Positions 5,622-38,737 of a DNA stretch of 42,387 nt are shown here, one piece after another. The position numbers and the translations under genes are program-made. Numbering within the stretch: the first letter of the stretch is position 1; the number at the start of each line of letters is the position of its first letter. The DNA lies in NCBI RefSeq assembly GCF_002114215.1, contig NZ_NCTE01001505.1, positions 1 to 42,387 of the forward strand, read 5' to 3'. The stretch is from Streptomyces sp. 13-12-16. GTDB lineage: Bacteria; Actinomycetota; Actinomycetes; Streptomycetales; Streptomycetaceae. The notes under the pieces were generated by a model. It worked only from the letters and a program-made list of their open reading frames with translations, was not told where the DNA came from and searched no databases.

Positions 5622-6313
5622 CCACCACCACGACCTCCTCGCCCCCCACGCCCGGCACCGACCCGGGTCCACCGACCACCACCGACGAGAAGGCGTTCGC
5701 CTTCCTCGGGCAGGTCAACACCTGCTTGCGCGCCTGCCTGTGCACCCTGGCCCGCCACGGCGTCGCCCTTCGCGAACGCGAACCACAGCGTGCCCAGGCC
5801 CTCCTGGCCCAGGTCGAGTGCTGGCCCCTCTACAAGGGCGGCCAGTTCCTCTTCGACCTGATGGAGTGGGAGGACCTCATGCTCGACGGCGACCCGCCGC
5901 CCCTGATGTCCACCGAGCACATCCGGGCCTCCTGCGCTTTGCCCGTCCAGTGGATCGCCGCGGGCTCGGCCCCGGGCCCCGGGCCCGCACAGCTGATCCC
6001 CGGCCGGCGCGTCGCCACGGCTCTCGGACTGCCCCTGCGCATGCTGACCACCGTCACCCGTGCAGCCCTCACCGGGGCCGCGCAGGACCTGACCGACCTG
6101 CTCGCCACGCCGTTCGCCCAGCCCGCAGGAGACCACTCGTCCGAGGCCGACGGCGAACCCCGGTCCGACACCGGCCAAGAGGACCTGCCGACGCTGGAAG
6201 CCGGGTTCTACCTCTACCGGGACGTCGTCCTGGGCGCCCTCACCGTCCTGGGCCCCTTGCTGGCCGAACACGCACCCGACAACGGCCCGCCACCGCCTCC
6301 CGAGCCCCGCTGA
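5618..6313 (+). CDS. Unrecognised helical protein of the isoprenoid-lectin operon
   Basis: 231 residues from a GTG whose bases overlap the previous stop (GTGA), so translational coupling is expected. After a Thr/Pro-rich N-terminus of about 20 residues it is predicted mainly helical, with LGQVNTCLRACLCTLARHG (three cysteines within about ten residues), a WPLYKGGQFLFDLMEWEDLM block, and a C-terminal LEAGFYLYRDVVLGALTVLG helix before a Pro-rich tail. There is no DDxxD or NSE/DTE metal motif of terpene cyclases and no clear membrane segment. I do not recognise a family. Its fixed position suggests a partner or accessory role for the prenyl synthase, which is inference. Confidence 0.75.
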   Translation: MTTTTTSSPPTPGTDPGPPTTTDEKAFAFLGQVNTCLRACLCTLARHGVALREREPQRAQALLAQVECWPLYKGGQFLFDLMEWEDLMLDGDPPPLMSTEHIRASCALPVQWIAAGSAPGPGPAQLIPGRRVATALGLPLRMLTTVTRAALTGAAQDLTDLLATPFAQPAGDHSSEADGEPRSDTGQEDLPTLEAGFYLYRDVVLGALTVLGPLLAEHAPDNGPPPPPEPR

Positions 6314-26849: not shown

Positions 26850-27127
26850 GAGTACACCCTGGCAACGGCGGCCATGGACCACGACCGTCTTCGCTGGGGA
26901 CGAACACGTGTCTCGCCCGTCTTCCACGGCGGGTCGGTGACATCAAAACTCGGCTCCGTCACAGATCTTGGGGAGCGGTCGCGGAGCGTGACCGGGGTGT
27001 TCGATTGCGAAGACTCGGGTCGAGGTGAGACGGCGTACGCCTCTCCATCTGGCAGACGAGCATGACGCTCCGTCAGGTATGTCTTGGTTCTGGCTGGAGC
27101 TGGTAGTGGCCGGGGACGGTGCTGGTT

Positions 27128-28818
27128 ATGCAGGCCGACACAATGTTCTGGGACTCGCTGGTGTTCGACGGGATCGACGGCGTGGACGTCGATGCAGTGA
27201 CCGTCGCCTTCGGCAGGGTCGACATCGTGGCGCGAGGCCGGGCGACCGGCGGGGTGTGTCCTGACTGCGGCCGTTCATCGAACCGGGTGCACGGCTCCTA
27301 CCAGGGCAGACTGAAGGACCTGCCGCTCGCTGGGCAGAGCGTTGTGATCTGTCTGACCGTCCGGCGTTTCATCTGCGACGCGGCAGACTGTCCACGTCGC
27401 ACATTCGCCGAACCGTTCGCGCGGCTGACCACCCCGCACGCACGCCTCACTTCGCGACTCGGCCATGCCCTGGAACGCGTTGGGCTTGCCCTCGCTGGAC
27501 GGGCCGGTGCCAGGCTGACCGCCCGACTCGGTTTTCGCGCAGGAAGGATGACCTTGCTGCGCAAGGTCATGGCGCTGCCCGACCCGCAGCCCGGCACACC
27601 CCGCGTGCTGGGCGTGGACGACTTCGCGATCCGCCGTGGACGGACCTACTCCACCGCCTTGACCTGCGGCGAAACCCATCGAGTGGTCGACGTGCTCCCG
27701 ACCCGCGACTCCGCTCCGCTGGCCGTGTGGCTGGCCAATCACCCAGGCGTGGAGATCATTTGTCGAGACCGAGCGGGCGCCTGCGCGGAGGGCGCTCGAA
27801 TCGGCGCCCCCACCGCAGGCCGGGTGGCCGACCGATTTCATCTGTGGCAGGGCACCGGCCGGGCCGTGGAGACCTGCGTCGCGGCCCACCGTGAATGCCT
27901 GAATGCTTCAACACCACTGACAAAAATGGCCGTTGAGGCACCCAGCGACACCAAGGTACCCGCCGGCCCGGACCTGACGGCCGTCGGGCTCAGCGCAAGA
28001 AGGCCGCGCACGCCTTGGTCCACAACCTGCTCGCCCAGGGCCATTCCCGCCGGGGAATCGCCCGGCACCTGGGCTGGAGCCTCAACACCGTCCTGCGCTA
28101 CGCACGTGCCGTCGACTGGCAGGACACCCTCCGCGAGAACCGGCCCCGGCCCACCAGGCTGGATCCTTGCAAGCCTTACTCGGAACGGCGGTTCGCCGCG
28201 GGATGTACGAGCGTCACCCGTCTGCACCACGAACTCCTCGCTGAGAACGCCCCAGTCACCTACCAGATGGTCCGCGCCCACATCACCACCCTGCGCGCCG
28301 CACCGGCAACAGCACCTCCTCCACCGCCGACGGTCCGGCAGGCCACCGGCTGGCTCACCCGCCACCCCGCGACCCTGAGCGAGGACGACCGCACCTATCT
28401 GAAGAACGTCCTGGCTCGTTGCCCGGAACTGGACGCCGCCGCCCGCCATGTCCGGGATTTCGGCGAGATCCTCACCGGCCGTCTCGGAACCAGGCTCCCC
28501 ACCTGGATCGAGGCCGTCGAGGCCAGCCAACTGCCCGGCCTCACCGGCTTCGCACTTCACATGCTGGGAGACCTCGACGCCGTGACAGCCGGACTCACCC
28601 TGGAGTGGAGTTCCGGCAGTGTCGAAGGTGCTGTGAACCGCATCAAGAAGATCAAAAGGCGGCTCTACGGTCGAGCCGGATTCGAACTGCTCCGAAAGCC
28701 GATCCTGCTGCAATGGCTTCTACGGCCACCAGGCAGCATGAAACTGGCGTCTCGTCACGCCATACGCATGGCCCGGAACACACCAGCCCTGCAGGGCCGG
28801 CGAGCGATACCGAAGTGA
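27128..28818 (+). pseudogene. ISL3-family transposase, frameshifted
   Basis: The N-terminal zinc-finger region (GGVCPDCGRSSNRVHGSYQG, RRFICDAADCPRRTFAEPFA) is followed by RVLGVDDFAIRRGRTYST with the first catalytic Asp, EIICRDRAGACAEGARIGAP with the second, and VADRFHLWQG. Near 27985 the sense moves one frame and resumes as KKAAHALVHNLLAQGHSRRG, continuing to LEWSSGSVEGAVNRIKKIKR RLYGRAGFELL with the catalytic Glu and stopping at 28818. Some residues seem deleted at the break. Otherwise the protein is nearly full length, so loss of activity may be recent. Confidence 0.85.
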
Positions 28819-29473: not shown

Positions 29474-29572
29474 GGCCCTACGGCAGTCACCCTCCGCGTT
29501 CGCCCACCAAGATCTGTGACAGAGCCCGCTTCTCACCGACATCTCTCAGCCGTCTGATCGCCAAGTGCGTAC

Positions 29573-29785
29573 CTGGTGGGCACCCGCCACCGCGCCAAGG
29601 GCACGACCTCCGAGGCGTCCTCCCGCCCGGACGCCGACACCTATGCGGCCCACGGCGGCTCCTTCTCCATCAGGGGGGAAGGCGCGGGTGTCATCGGTGC
29701 GGTGACGGCCTCGGACCTGCAACTCCAGTACCACCAGCGGATGGTGGAGGCCCCGGAGCACTTCCTGACCCGCCCGTGGGCACTG
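29573..29785 (+). pseudogene. UPF0303 / heme-degrading-domain protein C-terminal fragment
   Basis: The plus strand reads LVGTRHRAKGTTSEASSR, DTYAAHGGSFSIRGEGAGVI and GAVTASDLQLQYHQRMVEA, the C-terminal half of UPF0303 (HbpS-like) proteins, in which the usual text is A-H-G-G-S-F-P-(I/V)...G-V-(I/V)-G-x-V-T-V-S-G. No start is present; the sequence begins right of the ISL3 end at 29526, so the insertion probably destroyed the gene. Confidence 0.6.
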
Positions 29786-30009
29786 TCGGGCCGCCTCTTG
29801 GACCCTCACGGATCAACAGCCGTGCCGGGGCCAGCGCTCCGTGCCACCGAGCCGCCCCGGTAACGCGGAGCGGTCCTCGGCAGGCCACTCGGCTCTCGTC
29901 GGTACAGCGGGACGGGCTCCTCTGCCCGACCGTTGCCCCGCCTGCGGCGCTGCTCCGGCCGGGTGACTCCCGGAATGCGGTCCGATGCCCAGGCGGTGAC
30001 GCTGACGTC

Positions 30010-32694
30010 ATGGCATCTCCTCTGACAAGGCGACTCGCGGCCGCGTTACTCGTCTGGCTCACCGCCGTGCCCGGAACGGCCGCAGCCGCCCCGGCCGGCG
30101 GGGACACCGGGGCTGCGGACGGGTCACTCACGACCGTCGGCGACGCACTGCCGGCCCTCGAAAAGGCAGCCCGTCCGTTGCGCACCACCGAGCCCTCGGG
30201 GGGTTTCGAGGACCTGCGCCCCTTCGGGAAGGCGGTCGGTGACGCCGTGGTGGTCGGTATCGGCGAGGCCGCCCACGGCTCCCACGACTTCGTCACCTTC
30301 AGAGACCGGGCGTTCCGGTACCTGGTCGAGGAGAAGGGCTTCCGCTCCTTCGTCCTGGAGGCCAACTGGGGCGCCGGTGCGCGCCTCGACCACTACCTGC
30401 TCACCGGGCGCGGTGATCCCGTCCGGATCATGTCCGAGGAGTTCCAGAACGCTCACCTGCTGCTGCACAGCCAGGAGTACCTGGACATGATCCGCTGGAT
30501 GCGCGCGTACAACGTCGCCCACCCCGACGACCCGGTCAGGTTCGCCGGCGACGACAGCAGTTACGCCGGCCCGGAGCTCTACGACCGGGTCGTCGACCAC
30601 GTCCGGCGCGCCCACCCCGACCTGCTGCCCGAGGTCACCGGCCTGTACGAGGGGCTGCGCCCCACCCTGCCCGTCGACGCGTGGATGCGCGCCGCCGTGA
30701 CCGCTCCCCTGGACGAGCGCCGTGCGAAGGCCGAACGCACCGGACGCGTCCTGGAACTGCTCGGCGCCCGTAAGCCCGCCGGGACAGACGAGGACCATGC
30801 CTGGGCGGTCCAGCACGCCACCGTGATCGACCAGGTGGCACGCCTGTACGCCTTCGATCTCGCGGATCCCCGAATCGCGCCGGAGGCCATGGCCTACCGT
30901 GACACCGTCATGGCGGAGAACACCCTGTGGTGGCACCGCCACACCGGCCACCGACTCGTGCTCGGCGGGCACAACAGCCACCTGTACACCAGGAGTTCCA
31001 CCCCCACCCTGCCCGTCCCCCAGGGAGCGGTGCTCCGGCGGCGGCTGGGCGACGGGTACCTGACGGTGGGACTCTCCTTCGACCGGGGCGCCGTGCACGC
31101 CACCGCACAGGGCCTGCAGAACCCGGCCGACCGGGACGTCAGGCGGTTCGACGTGGAGCCCTCCGTGCCCGGCTCGGCCGAGCACGTCCTGGACCAGGTG
31201 AGCCACCGTGACTGGTACGCCGACCTGCGCACGGCACCGCCCGCCGCCCGCGCCCTGCTGGACGTCACCCGGCCCAAACGGGAGATCGGCACGGACTTCC
31301 CTCCCTCCGTCGACCAGGTCAACCTGCTGAGGTCGGCGGACCTGGTGGTGCACCTGCACGAGATCCGGCCGAGCCGGAGACTCGCCCGTGAAGCGGCCGG
31401 ACAGCGGCCCCCCACATCGGCGACGTCCACCGACCTGCTGCCCGCCCTGGAGAAGGCAGCCCATCCGCTGCGCACCGTACAGCCCACCGGCCCCTTCGAC
31501 GACCTGCACCCCCTGGGCGAGGCGGTGAGCGACGCCCGACTGGTCGGCGTCGGGCAGGCCGTCCACGGCTCCCACGACTTCCTCGCCCTCCAGCACCGGG
31601 TGTTCCGGTACCTGGTCGAGGAGAAGGGCTTCCGGGCCCTCATCCTCGAAGCCCCCTTCAGCGCGGGCCTCCGTCTGGACGACTACCTGCTCACCGGCCG
31701 CGGCGACCCCGCCCGGATCATGTCCGAGGAGTTCCAGAACGCCTACCTCTTCATGCGAACCCGCGAGGTTCTCGGCCTGATCCACTGGATGCGCGCGTAC
31801 AACATCGCCCACCCTCACGACCCGGTCAGGTTCGCCGGCAACGACAGCAGTTACGCGGGCCCGGAGCTGTACGACCGGGTCGTCGACCACGTCCGGCGCG
31901 CCCACCCCGACCTGCTGCCCGCCGTCACCGAGCTGTACGAGGGGCTGCGCCCCACCCTGCCCGCCGGCGAGCACATGACGGCCTCCTTCGAGGCACCCCT
32001 GGCCGTGCGGCGGGAGAAGGCCGAACGCACCGGCCGCGTCCTGGAACTGCTGCGCGCCCGGAGCTTCGCCGGGCGCACCGTGGCTGGGGACGACCACGTC
32101 CGGGCGGTGCGGAACGCGGAGATCATCCACCAGGTCGCACGCCAGGACGCCTTCGACTACGACGACCCGGCCGACGAACGCGAGGGCTTGGCCTACCGCG
32201 ACACCGTGATGGCGGACAACACCCTCTGGTGGCTCCGGCAGACCGGCGCCCGGGCGGTGCTGGCCGCCCACAACGGCCACGTATACCTACAGGGCTACGA
32301 CCCGGACTACCCGGTCATCCAGGGCGGCCTGCTCCGCCGCGCGCTCGGGGACGCCTACCGGGCCGTGGGCCTGGCCTTCGACCACGGCTCCTTCCACGCC
32401 ACCGACGCCGGCGTCTCCAACCCCCGTGACGAGGACGTGAAGGTGTTCCGCTCGGGGCCCTCCGTGGCCGATTCGGTCGAGCACACCCTGGACCGGGTGA
32501 GCCACCGGGACTGGTACCTCGACCTGCGCACCGCGCCGTCCGTGGTCCGCGCCTGGCTGGACGTCACCCGGCCCAAACGGGAGATCGGCACGCACTGGCC
32601 CCGGGACCCGGACCCGGTCAACCTGCTGAGGTCCGCGGACGTGGTGGTGCACCTGCATGAGATCCGGCCGTTCCGTCCGCTCCCGCAGAGCTGA
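30010..32694 (+). CDS. Secreted tandem erythromycin-esterase-like protein
   Basis: 894 residues from ATG 30010 (an upstream extension is unsupported). A Sec signal peptide (LAAALLVWLTAVPGTAAAAP) is followed by two complete erythromycin-esterase domains, about residues 45-460 and 475-894; known enzymes have one. Domain 1 has the expected VGIGEAAHGSHDF (Glu86, His89) and GGHNSHLY; in EreB-type enzymes these Glu and His positions are needed for macrolactone hydrolysis. In domain 2 the motif is VGVGQAVHGSHDF: the Glu is Gln516, while His519 and AAHNGHVY remain. Long stretches are nearly identical in DNA (for example 30545-30640 and 31835-31930), so the domains come from a tandem duplication. Macrolide hydrolysis is possible but the substrate is unproven; many relatives act on unknown esters. 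Confidence 0.9.
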   Translation: MASPLTRRLAAALLVWLTAVPGTAAAAPAGGDTGAADGSLTTVGDALPALEKAARPLRTTEPSGGFEDLRPFGKAVGDAVVVGIGEAAHGSHDFVTFRDRAFRYLVEEKGFRSFVLEANWGAGARLDHYLLTGRGDPVRIMSEEFQNAHLLLHSQEYLDMIRWMRAYNVAHPDDPVRFAGDDSSYAGPELYDRVVDHVRRAHPDLLPEVTGLYEGLRPTLPVDAWMRAAVTAPLDERRAKAERTGRVLELLGARKPAGTDEDHAWAVQHATVIDQVARLYAFDLADPRIAPEAMAYRDTVMAENTLWWHRHTGHRLVLGGHNSHLYTRSSTPTLPVPQGAVLRRRLGDGYLTVGLSFDRGAVHATAQGLQNPADRDVRRFDVEPSVPGSAEHVLDQVSHRDWYADLRTAPPAARALLDVTRPKREIGTDFPPSVDQVNLLRSADLVVHLHEIRPSRRLAREAAGQRPPTSATSTDLLPALEKAAHPLRTVQPTGPFDDLHPLGEAVSDARLVGVGQAVHGSHDFLALQHRVFRYLVEEKGFRALILEAPFSAGLRLDDYLLTGRGDPARIMSEEFQNAYLFMRTREVLGLIHWMRAYNIAHPHDPVRFAGNDSSYAGPELYDRVVDHVRRAHPDLLPAVTELYEGLRPTLPAGEHMTASFEAPLAVRREKAERTGRVLELLRARSFAGRTVAGDDHVRAVRNAEIIHQVARQDAFDYDDPADEREGLAYRDTVMADNTLWWLRQTGARAVLAAHNGHVYLQGYDPDYPVIQGGLLRRALGDAYRAVGLAFDHGSFHATDAGVSNPRDEDVKVFRSGPSVADSVEHTLDRVSHRDWYLDLRTAPSVVRAWLDVTRPKREIGTHWPRDPDPVNLLRSADVVVHLHEIRPFRPLPQS

Positions 32695-32838: not shown

Positions 32839-32873
32839 GCCGCAGGCCGCAGGCCGCAGGCCGCAGGCCGCAG
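32839..32873. repeat. Heptamer tandem repeat, GCCGCAG x5
   Basis: Five exact copies of GCCGCAG lie in the intergenic region between two convergent genes. Same unit length and copy number as the array at 2566-2600. Confidence 0.9.
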
Positions 32874-32914
32874 GGTGGCGAGTACTCCTCATCACCGCGC
32901 GTGTCGCGACCGGC

Positions 32915-32950: not shown

Positions 32951-33304
32951 TTACCTGACGTGGAAACCGTAGACATGGTAGGTGTCGGCGCCGGTGAAGG
33001 GGGCTAACGTGTGGGGCGGGAGCACTTCGACGTCCCATCCCAAGTTCGTCCTCCAGAAGACGACCACGTCGTGGGCGCCCGAGTAGAAGGAAGTGACACC
33101 GTCCTGTCCGAGCGGGACGTCGCCGGGACCGGTCCAGCACCGGGCGTGCTCCGTGCCGTTCTCCAGGTACGTCACCCTCACGGAATCCGTGCCGGTGCCG
33201 CAGTCGATCTCCTCGGTGGCGAAAGCGGGGGCTGCCGGGAGCGCGACGCTCACCGCGACGGCCGCTATTGCACCCAGCGCCAGTTTCTTGGATCGGCTCT
33301 TCAT
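32951..33304 (-). CDS. Small secreted beta/gamma-crystallin-like protein
   Basis: 117 residues from ATG 33304, with GGAAGGA upstream. A signal peptide (KKLALGAIAAVAVSVALPAA PAFA) leaves a mature domain of about 88 residues with two cysteines (EEIDCGTGTDSVRVTYLENG, HARCWTGPGD), followed by DGVTSFYSGAHDVVVFW and a C-terminal TYHVYGFHVR strand. This two-cysteine pattern is common in small exported Streptomyces proteins with a crystallin-like or lectin-like fold. Function unknown. A frameshifted relative with the same style lies at 21769. Confidence 0.8.
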   Translation of the reverse strand: MKSRSKKLALGAIAAVAVSVALPAAPAFATEEIDCGTGTDSVRVTYLENGTEHARCWTGPGDVPLGQDGVTSFYSGAHDVVVFWRTNLGWDVEVLPPHTLAPFTGADTYHVYGFHVR

Positions 33305-33616
33305 GGAGTCGTGGTTCCTTCCGGTCAGAGCTCCGGTGGGATGGAGCTTTACATGAACCATCAACCATTAACCGGCTTTGTTTCAACGCCTCGGTGGAAT
33401 CTCCTCGCGAACCGGCCGACGGCGTTGTCCACGCGCGCCCCGGCCCGAGACACCGGGCGTCCTGGAGGAACGGGGCGCTCCGGACGAGTCGGGGAGGGGT
33501 GCACAGGCTCCGTGGGAAAGGCGCGCGTGGAGGAGGAAAGCCCTGCGGTTCCGGGGCGGACCACCGCTGTTGGGCCTCGTTCGGGACGAGGGTGGTTGGC
33601 TATGCAGGCGAGAACC
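33305..33616 (-). promoter_or_regulatory. Upstream region of the small secreted protein gene
   Basis: The AT-rich stretch 33345-33385 carries AACCAT-type direct repeats (AACCATCAACCATTAACC around 33356-33373) upstream of the minus-strand gene, plausibly its promoter or operator. The rest, to the ISL3 end at 33617, shows no supported gene. Confidence 0.3.
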
Positions 33617-36681: not shown

Positions 36682-36960
36682 TCAGGACGGATCGTCGATG
36701 AGCCCAAAGCCCTCCGGGAACCCCTCCAGGAACTCACGTCGAGCGGGGTCGGCCTCGGCAGCTGTCATCTCCCCGAGCAGGGCGATCAGCTCCTGTTGCT
36801 GATCACCAGGCAGCGTGCTGACCACGTGGGCGACCCCCTCCGTCACCTTGACCGCGTCGTCCTGATCCATCTGCTCGTTTTCGCTGCCGTCGATGAACCA
36901 CAGGACATCGACCAAAACCTCGACCAAGACACGAGTCAGGGACGGATACGAAGACGTCAC
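36682..36960 (-). CDS. Passenger protein B of ISL3 element 2 (92 aa)
   Basis: GTG 36960 is preceded by GGGAG. The peptide reads PSLTRVLVEVLVDVLWFIDG, then DAVKVTEGVAHVVSTLPGDQ QQELIALLGEMTAAEADPARREFLEGFPEGFGL, an acidic all-helical small protein. A longer in-frame extension upstream runs through the inverted repeats and is not real. It lies 74 bases upstream of passenger A on the same strand, so the two may be co-transcribed. The family is not recognised; size and acidity would suit an adaptor or immunity-type protein, which is only a suggestion. Confidence 0.65.
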   Translation of the reverse strand: MTSSYPSLTRVLVEVLVDVLWFIDGSENEQMDQDDAVKVTEGVAHVVSTLPGDQQQELIALLGEMTAAEADPARREFLEGFPEGFGLIDDPS

Positions 36961-37063
36961 GGCGGTCTCCCAGCAGATCAACGGCAGAGTCCGGTCATCC
37001 CACCACGCACCACTGACATCACGATCCGCGAACCTCCACGGAAAGTGGACCAGAGCCTTGTTC

Positions 37064-38000
37064 GGCTCTGATCCACTTCTTGTGAGGCGGCGACACGGCG
37101 TCACAACCGGCTGGAAGGAAGCCCGTTGGTGTGATTGCAGCGTGTTCTCGACGTTCTCCACGGTCTTCGCCCATCTGTCCTCCGTGGTGGTCGACGAGAT
37201 CAGAGCAGATGGCGGTGGGATAGCCCTCACGGCACGGACGGTGACGCGCGAGGCGGCCTGCCCGGGCTGCGGCGCCGTGTCCGTCCGTGTCCATGGTGGC
37301 CACCGACGGCGCCTTGCCGACCTCTCGGCGGCCGGGCGGCAGGTCCTGATCGACCTGCTGGTGCGACGGTTCCTTTGCCCGGCGGCTGCGTGCGGTCGCC
37401 GCACGTTCGTCGAGCAAGTGGACGGGCTCACCGAGCGATTCGCGCGGCGCACGCCGCTCCTGCGTCGCTCGCTGGAAAAGATCGCGCCGGCGCTCGCTGG
37501 ACGTCCTGGCGCCCGGCTGGCCGCGCATCTGTCCATCCCGACGAGTGCGAACTCCCTGCTCAGACTGGTGCGCAGGCTTCCGGACAAGCATGTCGGCGTC
37601 GCGCCCCGTGTGCTGGGCGTCGATGATTTCGCCCTGAAGAAGGGGCACGTCCATGGAACGATCACCTTGGACATGGAGACCGGGGAGCGCGTCGACGTCC
37701 TGCCTGACCGCACCGCGGAGACCCTCACCGCGTGGCTGCGCGCACACCCCGGAGCGGAGATCGCCTGCCGGGACCGGGCCAGTGCCTACGCCGAGGCCGT
37801 ACGCACCGCCCGCCCCGACGCGATCCAGGTCGCGGACCGCTTCCATTTGTGGAAGAACCGGTGCGAAGCCGTCGAGAAATACGTTGTCACGCACCGCAGT
37901 TGCCTCGCCGAGCCTACCGAGGACGCGCCCGCTGACACCACTGCCGAGCAGGAGGTGTCGGGGCGGCCGGAGGGGATGCGCGTGACCCGGCGCCGCGAGC
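37064..38000 (+). mobile_element. ISL3-family element 3, left part only
   Basis: The left end GGCTCTGATCCACTTCTTGTG starts at 37064, six bases after the right end of element 2, with which it shares the terminal sequence. The transposase N-terminal two thirds follow, and an IS110 relic on the opposite strand begins at about 38000; no right end is seen. Confidence 0.65.
37142..38000 (+). pseudogene. ISL3-family transposase, truncated at its 3' side
   Basis: From about GTG 37142: VFSTFSTVFAHLSSVVVDEI, CPGCGAVSVRVHGGHRRRLA and RRFLCPAAACGRRTFVEQVD (zinc ribbons), GVAPRVLGVDDFALKKGHVH (first catalytic Asp), GAEIACRDRASAYAEAVRT (second) and VADRFHLWKNRCEAVEKYV. At about residue 285 the ISL3 sequence stops; the frame only continues as antisense of IS110. 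The C-terminal third with the catalytic Glu is lost. No frameshift is seen up to that point. Confidence 0.85.
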
Positions 38001-38737
38001 CGGCCAGGCTCGGGACGATCAGCGCGGCCGCCCCCGTGCCCGGAACGATGACGGTCTCCTCGTCCAGCGCAGCGAAGATGTCCTCGACCAGCCGCTCGGC
38101 CATCCGCGGGGCCTTCGGCCGTAACAGGGTGACCAGCCGCCGCCGTCCGGCCTTGCGGATCCGGGCCGGGGACCCGAACCGTTCCAGCAGGGTGAGGACG
38201 GCCGGGTGCTGCAACCGCGGCCCCAACACCCGCTCCAGCGACGGATGGATCTGCGTCAGCAGGCCATGGAGCCGGTGGCAACGCGGGGCGCTTCCCCGGC
38301 CAGGTCGTCGTCGAAGCCGACGATCATCTCCAGCTCGGCGATCGTCTCGTCCTCGCCGTCGATCCCCCGCAGCGTGTGGGGCATCGCGCGGGCGGCGTCG
38401 GCGATGATGAACGCGTCCTTCGCGTCGGTCTTGGCCTCACCCGGACAGAGGTCGGCGATCCGCCGCATCGCCAGGCCGGCAGATAGGCGACCGGGCAGCC
38501 CATGTCGCGGGCGACCGCCAGTGGCAGAGCTCCGATCGAGGGCGGCTGGTCGACCACGACCAGTACCGTCCCGTGCTTGGCCTGCAACTTGGCGAACAGC
38601 TCACGGAGCTTGGACTCGGTGTTGGGCAGGCGCTTGTCGAACGCCTTCTTCCCAGCCGGTGTGACGGCGGTGGCGTGGTGTTCGCCTTTGCCGACGTCCA
38701 GGCCGGGGAAGACGTCGATGTCGCCGGTGTCGATCAC
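37995..38737 (-). pseudogene. IS110-family transposase relic
   Basis: From GTG 38737 on the minus strand: DVFPGLDVGKGEHHATAV (first Asp of the RuvC-like DEDD domain), LVVVDQPPSIGALPLAVA, then a one-base shift near 38480, MRRIADLCPGEAKTDAKDAF IIADAAR (Asp-x-x-Asp region), another shift near 38280, and HPAVLTLLERFGSPARIRKA and VPGTGAAALIVPSLAG. The C-terminal domain with the catalytic Ser is missing, cut at the junction with ISL3 element 3. Bridge-RNA-type flanks cannot be judged. Confidence 0.8.

Follow-up and report, generated by a model that had tools for sequence, protein, structure and literature searches.

The macrolide esterases EreC/EreA and EreB/EreD are single-domain enzymes, and in the mechanism described for EreC His50 acts as the base, stabilised by Glu47, while Glu78 and His289 help to position the water and Arg261 stabilises the transition state (PMC7979712). 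According to the same source, which cites Morar et al., E78A was the only mutation that abolished the activity of EreC and E47A lowered its rate; the position-47 mutant reported there is E47A, not E47Q (PMC7979712). With the exception of position 261, the catalytic residues are given there as common to EreA, EreB, EreC, and EreD (PMC7979712). Also single-domain proteins are BcR136 and BcR135, two Bacillus cereus "succinoglycan biosynthesis proteins" (2QGM, 2RAD/3B55) that cleave p-nitrophenyl butyrate, macrolides not being cleaved by BcR136 according to a review (PMC6109786). The two-domain protein described here has these B. cereus proteins as the top sequence match among solved structures for both of its halves. 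The fold and the family are thus known, and what is new with respect to the open-licence literature is that one half of a tandem form carries a Glu-to-Gln replacement fixed in the lineage; no internal pair of an enzyme and a semi-enzyme was found described for the erythromycin-esterase family in the open-licence literature searched.

The gene is located in Streptomyces sp. 13-12-16 (assembly GCF_002114215.1, contig NZ_NCTE01001505.1), in a stretch of 42,387 nt hereafter called the window, and runs on the forward strand from the ATG at 30010 to the last base of the stop codon at 32694, with a start backed by 11 aligned relatives. It encodes a protein of 894 aa (P0001) in which Pfam recognises two PF05139 stretches, each half alone scoring approximately 240 bits (gathering cut-off 26.4). 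Read by eye, the N terminus (30010..30093, forward strand) resembles a signal peptide, with RR, a hydrophobic core, and AAAA, and the aligned relatives carry a similar leader. Domain 1 (approximately 30145..31398) is followed by a weakly conserved linker (approximately 31399..31437) and by domain 2 (31438..32685), all on the forward strand, and the two domains share 266 of 405 residues (66%). Direct repeats spaced by 1290 or 1299 bases connect the DNA of the two halves, as blocks of 84-300 nt with 71-79% identity and shorter blocks of 20-34 nt with 85-100%. Domain 1 contains Glu86 (GAG) within the motif GEAAHG and domain 2 contains Gln516 (CAG, 31555..31557) within GQAVHG, the His three positions further along being present in both, so that the ORF, Pfam, and the alignment agree with the first-pass annotation as to a tandem Ere-type ORF at 30010-32694, the Glu/Gln pair, and the retained His.

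A profile scan of genome contigs returned 17 loci, comprising six further double-domain genes (L036-L041), five close single-domain genes (L042-L046), and six more distant ones (L047-L052). The doubles are 70-86% identical and, together with the gene in the window, make up seven two-domain genes, all from Streptomyces, L037 belonging to S. caelestis NRRL B-24567. The five close singles, also from Streptomyces, are orthologues of domain 1 (74-86% identical) that retain the Glu and begin with a leader like that of P0001, from which they differ by having no intact second domain. Among 392 sampled genomes of the genus, 77 matched a domain-2 profile at E 1e-120 and only two had an adjacent domain pair, namely the gene in the window and G316, whose coordinates agree with L036; a survey at E 1e-20 that covered 396 genomes from across the phylum gave 55 matches and no further adjacent pair of full-length domains. 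Spread of the double form by plasmids was considered and rejected, as the 10 plasmid records that matched (E 1e-40) were all below 60% identity and their best stretches, of about 1.2 kb, have the length of one domain.

Catalytic positions were transferred from EreC by a HMMER alignment to the chain 6xcq, an H289N mutant by its title, whose numbering runs 20 ahead of that used in the paper. In this alignment, EreC E47, H50, E78, R261, and H289 correspond to E86, H89, E117, R297, and H324 in domain 1, which is canonical, and to Q516, H519, E547, R730, and H757 in domain 2; domain 1 therefore has the same catalytic residues as the macrolide esterases and domain 2 has four of the five. The suggestion that domain 2 has lost the catalytic glutamate is correct insofar as a Glu is gone, but the residue lost is the orienting one (EreC E47), while the equivalent of EreC E78, Glu547, is present. 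The accompanying statement that Ere enzymes need this Glu goes too far, since E47A has been reported as rate-reducing (PMC7979712).

The replacement is a stable property of the lineage. Gln occupies the position in domain 2 of all seven doubles, and Glu is found in domain 1 of the same seven (GAG or GAA codons) and in all five close singles (GAG), which excludes a mutation private to this strain or a sequencing error; no double with Glu in its second domain was found, and conservation of Gln across double-domain homologues, one of the outcomes proposed for checking, is confirmed. An earlier alignment of 77 distinct domains, 76 of which had column 47, contained 69 Glu and seven Gln, and a larger set of 108 non-redundant PF05139 domains contained 92 Glu, seven Gln, three Gly, one Thr, and five unresolved residues, both sets having been collected by means of profiles built on this clade and on loci picked for their scores, and thus not being a random sample of the family. 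The seven Gln are exactly the seven second domains, and Glu is present in 92 of the 96 other resolved domains. The remaining four (4/103 resolved domains, none from doubles) are without the Glu and have the other catalytic residues, and because of them the position-47 Glu was not used as a criterion of PF05139 membership. These four (L134, L136, L137, and L138) form a divergent PF05139 group from the phylum sample, in which Gly or Thr stands in place of the orienting Glu and the other four catalytic residues are present.

Such a consistent pattern, with Gln in every domain 2 and Glu in every domain 1, is what would be expected if domain 2 were a true pseudoenzyme, silenced by Gln516 and now serving as a substrate holder, as a stabiliser of domain 1, or as a protein anchor, a reading that we consider possible but unlikely. 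In the laboratory, substrate traps are commonly made by exchanging a Glu next to a catalytic residue for Gln. The equivalents of the base His50, of the indispensable Glu78, of Arg261, and of His289 are nevertheless present in domain 2 of all seven doubles, as in domain 1, so that the loss of indispensable residues by which a pseudoenzyme is recognised is not seen, and both domains of all seven pass as family members when judged on His50, Glu78, Arg/Lys261, and His289 (EreC numbering), position 47 being Glu in domain 1 and Gln in domain 2. In the set of 108, the His50 and Glu78 equivalents were found in 103 of 103 domains with those columns and the Arg261 and His289 equivalents in 107 of 107 with theirs. 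The slowing of EreC by E47A (PMC7979712) and the four domains that dispense with the Glu while retaining the rest also speak against a silenced domain 2.

Beyond the catalytic residues, a scan of all columns singled out position 47 as the only one at which a residue shared by at least 85% of the other domains is found in at most one domain 2. Twenty columns are at least 95% invariant in 89 outgroup domains; all 20 are retained by domain 1 and the single-domain orthologues (12 rows) and 17 by all seven domain 2s. The three exceptions are Gln516, a Phe replaced by Leu in three of seven, and the His that opens the HNxH motif, replaced by Ser or Ala in L039 and L040. Domain 2 thus shows some erosion at columns invariant in the family, and the eroded His in two of the seven is a further point in favour of a pseudoenzyme. 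Fifteen positions, including position 47, are fixed differently between the two domains, and four of the 14 others are no more than five residues away from a catalytic position (binomial p = 0.046), which weakly suggests divergence of the active site. A Trp common elsewhere (74 of 89 PF05139 domains) is absent from both halves, at a column that corresponds to Leu152 and Met582 (residues 151-154 and 581-584), and this hints at a change of the pocket that may predate the duplication.

Differently fixed positions adjoining catalytic residues are also what a fully competent second esterase might display, one in which Gln is tolerated and the two halves cleave different esters. The retained catalytic residues and the Gly or Thr accepted at position 47 in four of the 103 resolved domains are compatible with this, but the prevalence of Glu among the other resolved domains implies that it matters, and the loss of rate reported for E47A (PMC7979712) points in the same direction, for which reasons we regard a fully competent domain 2 as rather improbable.

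An AlphaFold2 model of domain 2, built with 25 related sequences, reached a pLDDT of 90.6 and a pTM of 0.90. Its top structure matches are the same two B. cereus proteins, BcR136 (Z 49.5, with 381 residues superposed at 2.2 A) and BcR135 (Z 48.2), both of which carry the Glu that is replaced in domain 2, and the fold is shared with EreC (Z 35.3 and 34.9, 3.2 A) at 19% identity; Foldseek is in agreement with these matches. The predicted domain has the major lobe and the helical minor lobe of the Ere fold, as compared with 2qgm, 3b55, 2rad, 6xcs, and 6xcq over 381-394 residues. Domain 1 is assigned the Ere fold by its sequence, and the model of full-length P0001 was of low confidence (pLDDT 56.6) and was left out of the structural comparison.

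A tree of 68 PF05139 domains places the seven domain 2s in one clade (bootstrap 99-100, SH-aLRT 99) and the seven domain 1s with the five singles in a second one (100/99), the two clades being joined at 100/100. Because of these clades, the tree implies a single duplication older than the split of the seven strains and places the Glu-to-Gln change on the stem that leads to domain 2. The proposed origin by tandem duplication is accordingly borne out by the tree, but the recent divergence proposed with it does not fit, as the duplication is older than the strains and only patches look homogenised. The singles fall among the domain 1s, so that at least two separate changes are needed, and three in the best tree, which would fit repeated loss of domain 2. 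One of them, L046, retains a domain-2 stump of about 60 residues, and over 42 ungapped residues compared with each of the seven doubles the stump is closer to domain 2 (20-29 identities) than to domain 1 (16-22). Since the five close relatives have a domain 1 and no intact domain 2, domain 1 does not strictly depend on domain 2, which argues against an obligate stabilising role of the kind that a pseudoenzyme might have.

Gene conversion between the halves, also put forward by the first-pass annotation, receives moderate evidence. The two halves of the same genome share patches that are more alike than in mismatched pairs (Mann-Whitney p = 0.006 at third positions and 0.002 at all positions, with pairs that are not independent), as would be left by patchy homogenisation within genomes, but L041 had no excess of matched-half similarity, and the top value at third positions is the same for mismatched pairs (0.276) as for matched ones (0.27). 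No patch above the mismatched mean spans the Glu/Gln codon. We preferred the comparison of matched and mismatched halves to run-length shuffles because the latter lack a control for local conservation.

Purifying selection on domain 2 is about equal to that on domain 1. Under a GY+F3X4 codon model, with kappa taken from a four-value grid, omega was 0.112 for domain 1 and 0.128 for both domain 2 and the singles, and omega = 1 was rejected in the three cases (2dlnL of 645, 577, and 254, respectively). Pairwise Nei-Gojobori estimates of dN/dS averaged 0.458 in domain 1 and 0.512 in domain 2, the latter being higher in 15 of 21 pairs; the omega of the codon model is preferred because the Nei-Gojobori method ignores the skewed third positions. 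It is highly improbable, in our judgement, that domain 2 is decaying baggage of the duplication without a function, as the five close relatives that have no intact copy, among them L046 with its truncated stump, might otherwise lead one to think: the low omega, a reading frame open in all seven doubles, the confident predicted fold, and the retained catalytic residues are all opposed to it. A predicted folded domain under purifying selection is equally to be expected of a useful pseudoenzyme, and these two observations count in favour of that alternative as well. What had been concluded in the first place, that domain 2 is a pseudoenzyme because the Glu is lost, does not hold as worded in view of the four catalytic residues present in all seven strains, the omega of 0.128, and the four other domains without the Glu; the evidence offered then is insufficient.

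The explanation that we prefer, with moderate confidence, is that P0001 is a putative secreted hydrolase with one canonical half and one attenuated or re-tuned half, a macrolide substrate not being indicated. A single tandem duplication in a small lineage of Streptomyces, as supported by the tree, would have given rise to a hydrolase of two Ere-fold domains in which domain 1, with the full catalytic set, probably acts as the main esterase. Domain 2 keeps the water-coordinating His519, Glu547, and His757 and the transition-state Arg730, with its orienting residue fixed as a Gln that is nearly isosteric with Glu and may still hydrogen-bond the base His, without the charge. Most likely it would bind an ester or lactone of the kind bound by domain 1, and hydrolyse it more slowly or with altered specificity, as a second active site that has been attenuated or re-tuned, and not as a dead scaffold. 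This is likelier than a dead domain 2 because the Gln is kept in seven strains under strong selection. Against this explanation stand the erosion of domain 2, at the HNxH His in two of seven and at the Phe in three of seven, and the fact that domain 2 is dispensable in L042-L046, given that no intact copy exists there. A reading that we put forward tentatively, and think rather unlikely, is a secreted "catcher plus cutter" arrangement, in which the detuned domain 2 would capture the ester or lactone without cutting it quickly, and hand it to domain 1 or regulate domain 1. In any case, fused Glu and Gln copies, both under selection in seven strains and with single-domain relatives as controls, offer a clean natural experiment on the orienting Glu. 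Should domain 2 prove active, the "catalytic" Glu would be a tuning residue; should it prove silent, domain 2 would be a pseudoenzyme within this esterase family, in which we know of no other.

As for macrolides, P0001 missed the NCBIfam cut-offs for EreA, EreB, and EreD, with a best score of 96 bits (EreB model) compared with a cut-off of 750, and the ORFs scanned, which are a part of those in the window, included no pointer to a macrolide or biosynthetic cluster. A plain macrolide-resistance gene is therefore unsupported, and to annotate such Streptomyces genes as macrolide resistance would be equally so. Of 10 neighbouring ORFs submitted to Pfam, six had no match and four were matched, as two ISL3-type transposases, a DUF6461 protein, and a PHB-depolymerase-like protein. 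The ISL3-family transposase ORFs flank the esterase gene on the forward strand, 1.6 kb before it (27119-28378) and 4.2 kb after it (36893-38407), and are diverged from each other (45% identical over 288 columns); by eye, both appear disrupted in their C-terminal parts. A conserved operon partner was also sought and rejected, as none of 24 ORFs of the window matched any of the 17 loci (L036-L052) at a threshold of E 1e-10.

When the DNA of the window was compared with that of L036-L046 (pieces longer than 150 nt, E 1e-20), homology beyond the gene extended upstream just to 29570 and was common to L036, L037, and partly L041. The approximately 440 bp shared with L036 include the 3' part of an ORF lying upstream, which is open in L036, where it ends at 5724, and is a remnant in the window (29570-29863, forward strand). 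This ORF may resemble the HbpS/GlcG (DUF336) proteins, but the remnant in the window had no Pfam match. On the other side of the esterase gene, and convergent with it, lies a small secreted-looking ORF of 137 aa on the reverse strand (32951-33364), with no Pfam match. Directly downstream of the esterase gene, at about 32841-32875, a short tandem repeat of the ccgcagg type can be seen by eye.
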